From Campylobacteraceae bacterium (GTDB lineage: Bacteria > Campylobacterota > Campylobacteria > Campylobacterales > Sulfurovaceae), in the NCBI GenBank assembly GCA_027068975.1, contig JALXFN010000063.1:1-59100 (forward strand): a DNA stretch of 59,100 nt, written 5' to 3'. Positions 34,374-39,930 of this stretch are shown here, piece by piece. Below the pieces are notes generated by a model. It searched no databases. It was not told where the DNA came from and saw only the letters and a program-made list of their open reading frames with translations. Position numbers and translations under genes: made by a program. Position 1 is the stretch's first letter. The number at the start of each line of letters is the position of its first letter.

Positions 34374-35684
34374 CTATATTTTTACAGCCCTTACTCTCAA
34401 CCGTTTATAATCCAACAACCACTCCTCCTCTTGGCTATAAATACGCTCTTTTAAAATAACTTGACACTCCTCTTTAAAAACCTCAAACTGCTCTTGGCTT
34501 AAATGTTTGGTCACACCATTAGCAAAAATGTCTAACCAATTGCCTATATCGTCCATTGGTGTAGGTCTAGGGATAATCTCCATGTACTCTACCCTAAAAC
34601 CCTCTGACTCCAAAAGTGTTGTATACTCTTCCACACTAGGGAAGTACCAAGGGTTATCAAACGCTCCAAACTCGGGATGCTTCTCAAATACCTCTTGCAT
34701 CGCAGAGACCAAGGCATAAGCATTCCCCTCACCTCCAAATTCACAGACAAAATGCCCACCACGTTTAAGTACTTTAGCTATATTTTGAACAGCACTCCGT
34801 GCATCTTTGACCCAATGCAACATCGCATTTGAAAAGATAGCATCAAACGCTTCATCATAAGGCAAATCAGTCACAGAACCAACATAAGCTTCTATACCTT
34901 TAGATTGGCATTGCTCTATCATCTCAGCACTCATGTCTACGCCAACGACTTTTGCTCCTCTTCGTTCTATCTCCACAGCCAAAGTTCCTTCACCACAACC
35001 TACATCTAAGATTTTTTCTCCTTTTTGTGGGTTAAGTAAATCGACCACAGGCAATGCCAATTGTGAGACAAAGGCAGTGTGTTTGTTGTAGCTGTTTGGG
35101 TTCCATTTATTTGTTTCATTTTGAGTTGTTACAAAATTTTCTGTAGTCAAACACTCTACACCAATATTAGCAATATCAACTATATTGGCTTTTGCTATCT
35201 CCTGCGTTTGTGCTTCTGTTGCATCGGTAATCAATGTCACATCATAACCCAAAGCCACCCCATCAAAGATAGTTGCACGAATACAGTTTGGATATTGAAT
35301 TCCACAAACAACAATCTTTTCTATACCCAATCGTCGCAAAATAAAATCTAACTCTGTCTGCATAAAACCACTAAAGCGATTTTTAACTATTTTGTACTCT
35401 CCCTCTATGGGTGCTAATTCATCAATAATTTCACACCCCTTAGTATGAGGAACACAATATTTTTGCTCTGTTAAAAAATTATCTAATCTCGTCTTTTCTA
35501 TGTCGCTTCCATCTGCTCTATATTCTCTATAAACATGGAACACAGGTAACTCTTGTGACCTAAAAGATGCAAGTACTTTTTGAATATTTGGTACTATAAT
35601 TTCGGCTCTTGCGATGGTTTGTGGAGCTGTTGGCAAAACAAAATCGTTTTGCATATCAATTATAATTAATGCTATTTTTTTCAT
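34374..35684 (-). CDS. Fusion of isochorismatase-like hydrolase and SAM methyltransferase
   Basis: 436 residues with two domains. Residues 1-185 form a cysteine hydrolase of the isochorismatase/nicotinamidase type with the triad Asp10 (LIIIDMQNDF), Lys101 (VKNRFSGF) and Cys134 (GIQYPNCIRAT). Residues about 193-436 form a class I SAM methyltransferase with motif I ILDVGCGEG (225-233), a VVGVDMS second strand and FDAIFSNAMLHWV, as in Tam/UbiE-like enzymes. The reading frame is intact across the joint. A hydrolase-methyltransferase fusion suggests consecutive steps on one small molecule, but the substrate is unknown. It is upstream of tetR and bracketed by REP pairs. Confidence 0.85.
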   Translation of the reverse strand: MKKIALIIIDMQNDFVLPTAPQTIARAEIIVPNIQKVLASFRSQELPVFHVYREYRADGSDIEKTRLDNFLTEQKYCVPHTKGCEIIDELAPIEGEYKIVKNRFSGFMQTELDFILRRLGIEKIVVCGIQYPNCIRATIFDGVALGYDVTLITDATEAQTQEIAKANIVDIANIGVECLTTENFVTTQNETNKWNPNSYNKHTAFVSQLALPVVDLLNPQKGEKILDVGCGEGTLAVEIERRGAKVVGVDMSAEMIEQCQSKGIEAYVGSVTDLPYDEAFDAIFSNAMLHWVKDARSAVQNIAKVLKRGGHFVCEFGGEGNAYALVSAMQEVFEKHPEFGAFDNPWYFPSVEEYTTLLESEGFRVEYMEIIPRPTPMDDIGNWLDIFANGVTKHLSQEQFEVFKEECQVILKERIYSQEEEWLLDYKRLRVRAVKI

Positions 35685-37279: not shown

Positions 37280-37337
37280 GGGGGTTCCTTTTTATAAAGT
37301 ATCTTAATACTTTAACAAAAAAAAGATAAAATAATAT

Positions 37338-38273
37338 ATGACAACACAAGAGCGACTACTGTACATTATTGAGAGGGTCTCAAAAGAGCCATGTTCTACT
37401 CAAAAACTTACCCAAGAGATTTTTGAGACAACAGAGAAAAATAAACAACGCCTTATTCAGATGGATATTAGTCTATTAAAAAAACATTTTAAAGATAAAA
37501 TGGTTACTGTCTCAAACAGACATAAATTTATAGAAGTCCCTTACTTTATCAAAAACATTACAACTACCGATGGAATCAAGATGAAAGAGTTGATTGAGTT
37601 TATGATGGTTTTTGATAACAAAATGCTCTCTATGTTTGAAAAAGAAGAGCCTCTACTCATTAAAAAGCTTAGAGAGGATATTAAGAGTATCTATCTGATT
37701 TATGAACCCCCTTTAGAGATACTTAACTCTGTTTTCTTAGAGGATATAAAAAGAGCCATTAAAGGTAAACGCTATGTTACACTAACTTATGAGAGTAATA
37801 TGTTTGAAACGTATACTGATATACAGATACACCGTATTATCTACGCTAGTGGGAACTGGTATATTGCTATTCATGACTCTAATTGGGAGAAAAAATATAA
37901 TCTTTTGCGTATCAATTTTATTAAAAGTCTAAAACTAGAGTCAAAAACTTTTCATAGAGACATAGAGATAGAAAAAGCCATTGACAATTTCCAATCACTC
38001 TTTACTAAGCCTGATGCTGAGCCTTTTGAGGTGATTGTAGAGGTCTCTTCTAAAATTATGAGACACTTTAAACACAAAAAGCATCTAAAATCTCAAAAGA
38101 TTATAGAGGAGAGTAAAAGAGGATTGAGGATTAGTTATGAGGTTACAGACCCTTTGGTGATTATACCACTTATAAAGCAGTGGATGCCATATATTAAGGT
38201 TATATCTCCTAAGCACATTAAAGAGCAAATTACTAAAGATGCAGAGCTTTTTTTAGAGTTGCACAAGGGGTAA
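37338..38273 (+). CDS. WYL-domain transcriptional regulator
   Basis: 311 residues: an N-terminal winged helix-turn-helix (1-65), a linker, a WYL domain (about 130-205) with RAIKGKRYVTLTYES and ASGNWYIAIHD (Trp174-Tyr175-Ile176), and a C-terminal WCX-like extension (230-305). WYL proteins bind ligands or nucleic acid through the WYL domain and often control defence or stress genes. The next gene starts three bases later with a strong ribosome site, so this regulator and the TAXI membrane protein form one operon. No ribosome site precedes the ATG; a GATAAAAT box ends six bases before it, so the message may be leaderless. Confidence 0.88.
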   Translation: MTTQERLLYIIERVSKEPCSTQKLTQEIFETTEKNKQRLIQMDISLLKKHFKDKMVTVSNRHKFIEVPYFIKNITTTDGIKMKELIEFMMVFDNKMLSMFEKEEPLLIKKLREDIKSIYLIYEPPLEILNSVFLEDIKRAIKGKRYVTLTYESNMFETYTDIQIHRIIYASGNWYIAIHDSNWEKKYNLLRINFIKSLKLESKTFHRDIEIEKAIDNFQSLFTKPDAEPFEVIVEVSSKIMRHFKHKKHLKSQKIIEESKRGLRISYEVTDPLVIIPLIKQWMPYIKVISPKHIKEQITKDAELFLELHKG

Positions 38274-38276
38274 GAG

Positions 38277-39680
38277 ATGTTTAAGCTATTTAAAGAAAAA
38301 CCCATGAAGAGACTTCAAAAAAAAATAGATGGAGGAGAGTCTGCCTTAGCTATCATTAATGAGATAGAGAAGATGGACATTCATAAAAATCCTTTAGAAT
38401 CCATCAATACTCTCTTTTCTATAACTGAATCACTTCTAAAGAGAGTTTTAGACAACAATAAGCCATGTGGTAAAAACATAAGCCTCTACCATAGTAAAAA
38501 CAGTAACACCATTATTAACCTTCAGCAGATTCAAAAAGCCATCTCAATTAGACATGAGACAACCCATGCACTCTTAGTAAGAGATGTTATAAAAACAGAC
38601 TTTGCTATCCATACTTATATTAAATATATACGAATTATTGCTTATGAAAACAATATTGATTTAGATGACTTTATTCTCTCTCCTAGAACAGAAGATTCTA
38701 TAAAGAAAATATCATTACAAAGTACAAAAAAAAGAGATTTATTGATAATGGTAAGTTTAATTTTTCTACTATTCTATTTTTCTTTCTTTTATAAGGTACT
38801 AAATCCTAAATTTTTAACAGGCTCTTCTTTGGGAACTTATTATCCAATTGCACAAGATATAAAAAAGTTAATTGCTCCTCATCTACTGGTTTTAGAGACA
38901 GAAGGCTCAATGGACAATATGAAGCGTATTGGATTGAGCAAGGAGAATGAGTTTCTAATTGCATTTGTTCAAAATGATGTTTTGAAATACTTATCTAAAG
39001 AGGCTCGTTCTGGTGATATGGAGAGACAAAAAATATTAAATAAAACCAAAGTGCTTATGCCCATTCACAGTGGAGAGATTCATATTTTAGTTAGAGAAGA
39101 CAATTTAGATATTAAAAATTTTAGAGATTTAAAAGATAAAAAAATTAGTATTGGGATGAGAAATTCTGGTACATCTATCACAGCAAAGTCACTCTATTTT
39201 AAACTCTTTCATGAAGAGATAGATAAAGTTTACCAACCCTATTATGAAGCTTTAAAAGCCCTAAGAGATAGAAGTATTGATGCTATTGTTTTAACAGGAG
39301 GGCAACCGTTATCTAAACTCAACAAAGATACAAGTGCTGTTCGATTGCTCTCCTATGAAGGAGAGCCTTTAGATGGATATAGTGTATCTTATATAAAAAA
39401 GAACTCCTATCCTTGGCTAAAACAAGAGAAGATTAGAACTCTATCTGTTCAATCTTTTATTGTAACCAATATTACCTCAAACAGGGAGAGTCTTCTCTAC
39501 CTTAAAGAGTATCTTAAAAAGTTAAAAGAGTATAAAGTCAATATAAGAAACAACAAAAATATAAAAGTCACCCACCCTAAATTGAAAGATTTAGCCCAAA
39601 AGAGATGTCTTCCTCCTCTACCTACAGGCTTAGAGTACCATCAATTTGTAAAATGGGATACTCCTTGGTGTAAAAAGTAG
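38277..39680 (+). CDS. Membrane-anchored TAXI-type receptor with cytoplasmic HEPN-like domain
   Basis: 467 residues in three parts. Residues 1-150 are cytoplasmic and helical, with IRHETTHALL (Arg92-x4-His97), the spacing of the HEPN RNase motif R-x4-6-H. Residues 154-173 form one transmembrane helix. Residues about 176-467 are a TAXI-family (TRAP-associated extracytoplasmic immunogenic) solute-binding domain starting TGSSLGTYYPIAQDI, with the lobe phrases KKISIGMRNSGTS and SIDAIVLTGG. No TRAP permease gene is nearby, so import is unlikely and ligand sensing is more plausible. It is co-transcribed with the WYL regulator. The HEPN call is tentative; the TAXI call is firm. Confidence 0.8.
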   Translation: MFKLFKEKPMKRLQKKIDGGESALAIINEIEKMDIHKNPLESINTLFSITESLLKRVLDNNKPCGKNISLYHSKNSNTIINLQQIQKAISIRHETTHALLVRDVIKTDFAIHTYIKYIRIIAYENNIDLDDFILSPRTEDSIKKISLQSTKKRDLLIMVSLIFLLFYFSFFYKVLNPKFLTGSSLGTYYPIAQDIKKLIAPHLLVLETEGSMDNMKRIGLSKENEFLIAFVQNDVLKYLSKEARSGDMERQKILNKTKVLMPIHSGEIHILVREDNLDIKNFRDLKDKKISIGMRNSGTSITAKSLYFKLFHEEIDKVYQPYYEALKALRDRSIDAIVLTGGQPLSKLNKDTSAVRLLSYEGEPLDGYSVSYIKKNSYPWLKQEKIRTLSVQSFIVTNITSNRESLLYLKEYLKKLKEYKVNIRNNKNIKVTHPKLKDLAQKRCLPPLPTGLEYHQFVKWDTPWCKK

Positions 39681-39682
39681 TA

Positions 39683-39703
39683 AAACGAAAATGATTTTCG
39701 TTT
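39683..39703 (+). terminator. Hairpin after the WYL/TAXI operon
   Basis: Perfect 10-bp inverted repeat AAACGAAAAT / ATTTTCGTTT around one base, directly after the TAXI stop codon. It ends in TTT but has no long T run; likely a terminator. Confidence 0.6.
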
Positions 39704-39726
39704 AGGATAATGCCCTGATTTTTTAA

Positions 39727-39930
39727 GACGCAGTATCATCAGGACTCTACAATGGAGAAAAAGCAGATTGGAACAAATGGATGGAGAAACCATTAACCAT
39801 GACCTCTATGGGTATGGCTGTTGCAACAGGAAAACTCCAATTTAAAACAGGAGACTTTAAAGCGATGATTAAGAATCTATCAATGGCAGGACCATTTATT
39901 AAAAGTTTTGGACTTATGACTAAAATTTAA
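39727..39930 (+). pseudogene. C-terminal remnant of an SCP2-like (sterol-carrier domain) gene
   Basis: A 67-residue open frame without a plausible start: a TAA lies directly before it and the first ATG is 18 codons in. The phrases GEKADWNKWMEKPLTM, ATGKLQFKTGDFKAMIKN and GPFIKSFGLMTKI follow the ending of SCP2 lipid-binding domains (a Trp-containing helix, GKLxxxGD, then a hydrophobic tail). The upstream part of the gene is absent, and the TAXI terminator lies where it should be. It therefore looks like the tail of a deleted gene. Confidence 0.65.

Follow-up and report, generated by a model that had tools for sequence, protein, structure and literature searches.

A mobile gene pair in Campylobacterota encodes a WYL regulator and a candidate receptor ribonuclease with periplasmic TAXI and cytoplasmic HEPN-like domains

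Layout of the Gene Pair

The stretch of DNA that was analysed (hereafter the window; 59,100 nucleotides of contig JALXFN010000063.1, from a Campylobacteraceae bacterium) carries two genes on the + strand with three bases between them, an ORF of 311 aa (37338-38273) and an ORF of 467 aa (38277-39680). The original prediction described them as a WYL regulator followed by a protein that combines a helical domain in the cytoplasm with a single membrane helix and a TAXI domain, and all of these parts are present. The features of the locus, with the evidence for each, are:

37304..37337, +, short conserved leader with the promoter-like pair TTAATA-17-TAAAAT (homology start; promoter scan)
37304..39697, +, extent of DNA similarity to the unit in genome G032 (blastn of the whole window against loci L002, L042 and L043)
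37338..38273, +, WYL-WCX regulator, 311 aa (Pfam; 88-92% identity in three other genomes; N-terminus aligned to a relative with HTH_11)
38256..38810, +, segment without DNA similarity to the G011/G007 allele, covering the end of the WYL gene, the HEPN part, the linker and the membrane helix (blastn gap; dS)
38277..39680, +, HEPN-like/membrane helix/TAXI protein, 467 aa (Pfam, NCBIfam, AlphaFold2)
38304..38681, +, cytoplasmic HEPN-like domain, residues about 10-135 (model, VIA-align, invariant columns)
38745..38801, +, single membrane helix, residues 157-175 (hydropathy peak 2.1, preceding positive charges, model)
38808..39677, +, periplasmic TAXI ligand-binding domain, residues 178-467 (Pfam, Foldseek, aligned residues)
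39686..39704, +, small inverted repeat after the stop codon (printed sequences; kept in relatives)
39727..39930, +, 3′ remnant of a gene whose full-length copy (131 aa) adjoins ddl in genome G003 (tblastn; DNA matches in genus members)

In the 467-aa protein, the strongly hydrophobic helix 157-175 is preceded by KKR, and because of these positive charges the N-terminal domain is placed in the cytoplasm. An AlphaFold2 model of the whole protein (mean pLDDT 82.8) makes the three parts visible, with a helix running from residue 139 to 175. Chance adjacency of the two genes is ruled out, since the pair recurs in three further genomes of the genus (G032, G011, and G007), where the WYL protein is 88-92% identical and the TAXI protein 61-74% identical to those of the window. 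Purifying selection on the HEPN part (dN/dS about 0.13 against G032) likewise speaks against chance. The promoter-like pair in the leader ends 5 bases ahead of the WYL start codon, such sites being no commoner than in shuffled sequence, and the WYL-gene transcript may be leaderless. The leader resembles the 3′ end of an SDF symporter gene, of which it may be a remnant.

The TAXI Domain and Transport

The periplasmic domain matches Pfam NMT1_3 (E 3.7e-22; 79.7 bits against a cut-off of 27) and scores just under the cut-off of NCBIfam TRAP_TAXI (81.5 bits against 84.35). Foldseek retrieves TAXI structures at E 2e-16, with glutamate-bound TAXI proteins as the best matches. The strongest binding determinants of VcGluP are Y45, S75, and Q93 (PMC11574862); an alignment that runs through TtGluBP equates them with Y188, S211, and Q232 of the 467-aa protein, which match the glutamate-binding residues of known TAXI proteins. 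The protein thus shares the TAXI fold and the key Tyr, Ser, and Gln with VcGluP, TtGluBP, and BP0403 (TAXI-GltS), and with BP0403 also the possession of extra N-terminal domains and the lack of a TRAP partner. However, it differs from all three in being fused across the membrane to a HEPN-like domain, with no translationally coupled transporter.

It had been claimed that no TRAP permease accompanies the pair and that the TAXI domain probably senses instead of importing. In three genomes the pair has no TRAP permease next to it, and in the fourth the contig ends within the gene. Elsewhere in the window's genome there is a single DctM gene (contig C84); the stretch seen shows no adjoining TAXI gene, and a search of this genome for a second TAXI gene found none. 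In a tree of 42 TAXI domains, those linked to TRAP permeases split from a permease-free group that includes the window's domain (branch support 96/96); only this main split is used here because some deep branches are long. The position in the tree and the kept glutamate determinants argue that the domain probably senses and does not import, and TRAP transport was rejected for the pair on the grounds of the missing permease and of this position.

A link to transport of another kind was retained as a rival, because a TAXI protein that lacks a TRAP partner can work with a different symporter, the example being TAXI-GltS of Bordetella (PMC12344293), and because symporters lie near the unit in two genomes: an SDF (dicarboxylate) symporter gene immediately precedes it in G032, and G011 has a TAXI protein together with an SDF symporter 2.9 kb from the pair. 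The 467-aa protein would then be a binding protein anchored in the membrane and supplying a secondary transporter such as a dicarboxylate symporter, and its cytoplasmic domain would only dock onto or regulate that transporter. We consider this rather unlikely, as the SDF symporter gene is found in 29 of the 34 genomes of the genus, nearly all of them without the WYL/TAXI pair, and is located away from the pair in the window's own genome. The cytoplasmic domain, moreover, has retained nuclease motifs and has been exchanged as a module (see below), and in G032 the junction suggests that the unit was inserted where the symporter gene ends.

In G011, a TAXI-type binding protein is encoded directly upstream of an SDF (dicarboxylate) symporter gene (L042 5338-7470), and the two may form another binding-protein-dependent symporter pair; the neighbors of this symporter are different ones in the rest of the genus. 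Two further TAXI loci were seen. In G028, a permease-free TAXI protein is clustered with a membrane subtilase and with SrfB and SrfC-type (Virul_Fac) proteins (L044 3292-15648). In G037, an 848-aa protein has an N-terminal TAXI region followed, as judged by eye, by putative FGE-sulfatase, LysM, and further binding-protein regions (L053 7251-9797).

The Cytoplasmic Domain

Part of the original prediction was an Arg92-x4-His97 motif in a helix context like that of HEPN ribonucleases, and motif, fold and relatives all support a HEPN-like domain. The described hallmarks of HEPN domains are Rx4-6H where helix 3 ends, Ex3[KR], and a polar residue (N, D or H) following the R (PMC3710099). In the window, the first takes the form R92-H93-x3-H97 at the end of model helix 82-97, and the second the form E51xxxK55; R92, H97, E51, and K55 are among 11 columns that are invariant over five sequences, to three of which the window is only 25-28% identical. 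The residue after the conserved Arg is polar, being H93 in the window and N in divergent relatives. Random placement of 11 invariant residues produced the two motif spacings together in about 0.02% of trials (~0.0002), a rough figure given that the test was framed after the motifs had been seen. Between the window/G032 allele and the G011/G007 allele the domain is only about 28% identical, and the change from RHETTH to RNYFQH keeps both R92 and H97; distant relatives carry RNNIAH and RNDIAH.

The fold of the N-terminal domain, modeled over residues 1-160 (mean pLDDT 77.6, core mostly above 80), is likewise HEPN-like. In VIA-align comparisons with solved structures, ranks 1-12 are all of HEPN type, 1wwp, Csm6, and HepT toxins among them (Z 8.7 to 5.9, with rows outside these twelve beginning near Z 5.4), middling Z-scores being frequent among helical bundles. 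With Foldseek on the isolated domain, the first two ranks go to HEPN toxins, neither match being significant. Relatives of the domain weakly match Pfam HEPN_MAE_28990 (E 0.0013), HEPN_Apea (0.0024), and HEPN_RiboL-PSP (0.0038), as well as PADLOC Csx1/CARF-HEPN profiles, all below threshold. No Pfam HEPN model, however, matched the window's own domain even at E 10, which together with the commonness of moderate fold scores among bundles speaks for an unrelated helical bundle whose Arg/His pair is a coincidence. Such a coincidence would have to account for two independent invariant HEPN motifs, for the relatives with RNNIAH, RNDIAH, and RNYFQH, and for top fold matches that are consistently HEPN, and we hold it to be very improbable; the domain belongs, with high confidence, to the HEPN superfamily. 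Neither of the two observations named as grounds for dropping the original prediction was made: the modeled structure is HEPN-like with R92 and H97 conserved, and a TRAP permease adjoins the pair in none of the genomes found. Two other identifications were rejected. When PDB sequences were searched with a profile built from the HEPN alignment, only weak TOM70 matches to the C-terminal part of the alignment came up, which were read as chance, and a Csx1/Csm6 CRISPR ancillary RNase was set aside since neither Pfam nor PADLOC finds a CARF domain and the sensor is TAXI.

Membership of the superfamily does not by itself imply catalysis, as some HEPN domains lack RNase activity and serve as binding domains (PMC3710099). 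The domain here might accordingly bind RNA or nucleotides, or only mediate pairing, with the real output running from the TAXI state to the WYL regulator; the adjacency and joint transfer of the two genes would suit this. However, the residues that inactive HEPN domains lose are kept here while the rest of the domain has changed greatly, which makes a non-catalytic role unlikely. We predict, with fair confidence, that the HEPN part is a catalytic RNase.

The WYL Regulator and Defense Genes

The product of 37338-38273 matches the Pfam models WCX (E 8.5e-6) and WYL (E 5.5e-5), in each case above cut-off, and its HTH is seen only by alignment of the N-terminus to a relative that carries Pfam HTH_11. 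With the HTH so placed, it has the HTH + WYL + WCX layout of WYL-WCX defense regulators (CapW/BrxR-like). WYL proteins of this kind, as shown by CapW and BrxR, can repress defense operons (PMC9122588, PMC9122601). The likeness extends to position, a WYL plus WCX regulator being sited ahead of genes that it may control. In contrast to the CBASS or BREX partners of those regulators, however, the partner here is a receptor-like protein, and the regulation is a prediction; most likely the WYL protein represses or tunes transcription of the pair.

Loci of relatives of the WYL protein (16, and one more from G011) include among the neighbors Cas1, Cas2, Cas6, Csx1, Csx20, Csx23, CARF nucleases, and SAVED proteins, and in four of these loci an MBL-fold protein adjoins the regulator (L050 5487-9849, L028, L033, and L027). 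In several of the latter there is also a protein with a putative protease-like N-terminus, which Pfam does not confirm. In a tree of the relatives, the four sequences from the window and the three other genomes form a clade of their own, deep support being weak. The suggested link to defense stands for the regulator's kind, which often adjoins defense genes, but not for the place of the pair in the window, where the immediate neighborhood is metabolic. The neighbors tested include no clear defense genes, and a defense island in the window was rejected; matches to mad2 and pVip were read as generic methyltransferase and radical-SAM matches. A single gene at 34374-35684 of the window encodes an isochorismatase-type hydrolase fused to a methyltransferase and is adjoined by a TetR regulator.

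Distribution, Mobility, and Allele Exchange

The pair was seen in one genus only (four genomes). Of 175 genomes of the family searched with a profile of the cytoplasmic domain, just four, all of that genus, contain it with strong support, two of the four alleles (G011 and G007) being nearly identical and searches beyond the phylum being limited. Two distant relatives of the domain (G380 and G395) stand out clearly among 397 genomes sampled across the phylum, and two further marginal matches were not treated as relatives.

The unit of the window is 83% identical to that of G032 over 2,412 aligned positions, and nothing outside 37304..39697 matches. It occupies three different sites in the genus. 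In the window it sits next to ddl, and the insertion is bounded on its right by the remnant at 39727..39930. In G032 it adjoins the end of the symporter gene, and in G011 and G007 it comes after a gene of pilus type. These boundaries indicate that the WYL/TAXI pair is a small, horizontally moving two-gene unit. An origin from a phage or plasmid was rejected, there being no match over the whole protein among phages, plasmids, and viral contigs.

Parts of the unit have also been swapped between alleles. Against G011 and G007, DNA similarity extends over 37307-38255 and 38811-39700 and is absent in the stretch between, where dS is 2.57 (saturated) as compared with about 0.6 on both flanks. Selection on protein sequence does not raise silent-site change. 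Since dS is saturated just here, the pattern is better explained by exchange of the HEPN-membrane segment between alleles than by fast evolution. G011 and G007 have almost the same receptor gene (dS 0.03) and different WYL genes (dS 0.30), so that parts of the unit also reassort.

A Predicted Receptor Ribonuclease

The gene pair, its domains and topology, the conserved motifs, the mobility, and the allele swapping, all read from sequence, are best explained by a mobile, WYL-controlled receptor ribonuclease in which the ligand state of the outer TAXI domain would govern RNA cleavage by the cytoplasmic HEPN domain. We give this reading a probability of roughly 0.55. Homology adds to it, as distant relatives of the domain occur in a SAVED/HEPN/MotA-like/OmpA operon, once with a WYL gene ahead. 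Against it stand the lack of a Pfam HEPN match for the window's domain and of a clear flanking defense gene in the window, the restriction to 4 of 175 genomes in one genus, and the symporter neighbors in G032 and G011.

The predicted steps, from ligand through signaling to catalysis and biological purpose, would run as follows. The 467-aa protein would be a one-pass inner-membrane receptor, and the ligand of its periplasmic TAXI domain would be an amino acid or organic acid, probably a glutamate-like one. A change between the bound and the empty state would alter the pairing of two cytoplasmic HEPN domains, and the altered pairing would switch on RNA cleavage through the R92/H97 active site, while the WYL protein would limit expression of the pair. 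The outcome could be growth arrest or reshaped expression upon an outside signal in a setting of stress or conflict, with phage defense, competition, and nutrient stress each a possible purpose.

Comparison With Known Systems

Three groups of bacterial inner-membrane HEPN proteins have been predicted, with external parts that perhaps sense surface stimuli (Anantharaman et al. 2013, PMC3710099). The present protein resembles them in joining a cytoplasmic HEPN domain to membrane helices and in the predicted degradation of RNA upon outside stimuli. However, those groups have a WP-type helix, a helical domain or a Zn-ribbon and no known outer ligand-binding domain such as TAXI, and no WYL partner is mentioned for them, whereas the present unit has one. 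The suggestion of a new kind of signaling or defense module thus holds in part: membrane HEPN sensing had been predicted in 2013, and what is new is the TAXI sensor, the WYL partner, the two-gene mobility, and the modular swap of the HEPN-membrane segment. A literature search for TAXI, HEPN, and WYL in combination found nothing.

Eukaryotic Ire1, whose KEN domain is a HEPN member, offers another parallel, with an outside sensor, one membrane helix and an inner HEPN-superfamily RNase activated by pairing. The likeness is one of layout only, as the orientation is opposite, the sensor different, and a kinase domain absent from the 467-aa protein. A full Ire1-like arrangement, in which a periplasmic amino-acid-binding TAXI domain controls a HEPN RNase through one helix, with the effector swapped between alleles and the whole WYL-regulated, is a tentative proposal to which we give somewhat less than even odds. 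The receptor ribonuclease would be a candidate for a step predicted in 2013, for which we found no follow-up, namely the conversion of an outside chemical signal into bacterial RNA cleavage by one protein. It would tie binding-protein sensing to WYL-controlled conflict modules, and the locus offers a clean swap of the HEPN-membrane segment inside a gene pair with both ends conserved.

The distant relatives of the domain lie in an operon (L078 6409-12338 in G380; L084 4697-9571 in G395) that encodes a SAVED-membrane protein, a HEPN protein of 589-611 aa, a small coiled-coil-like protein, a MotA/ExbB-like protein, and a MotB/OmpA protein that matches ZorB profiles. A WYL regulator precedes the operon in G380, and none was seen in G395. 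The HEPN domain is homologous to that of the window (E 1.4e-17 in G380), and G380 shares with the present unit a WYL regulator and membrane parts; the operon differs in that sensing would be via the SAVED domain and in that its HEPN protein has no TAXI domain. This operon is possibly an undescribed defense system.
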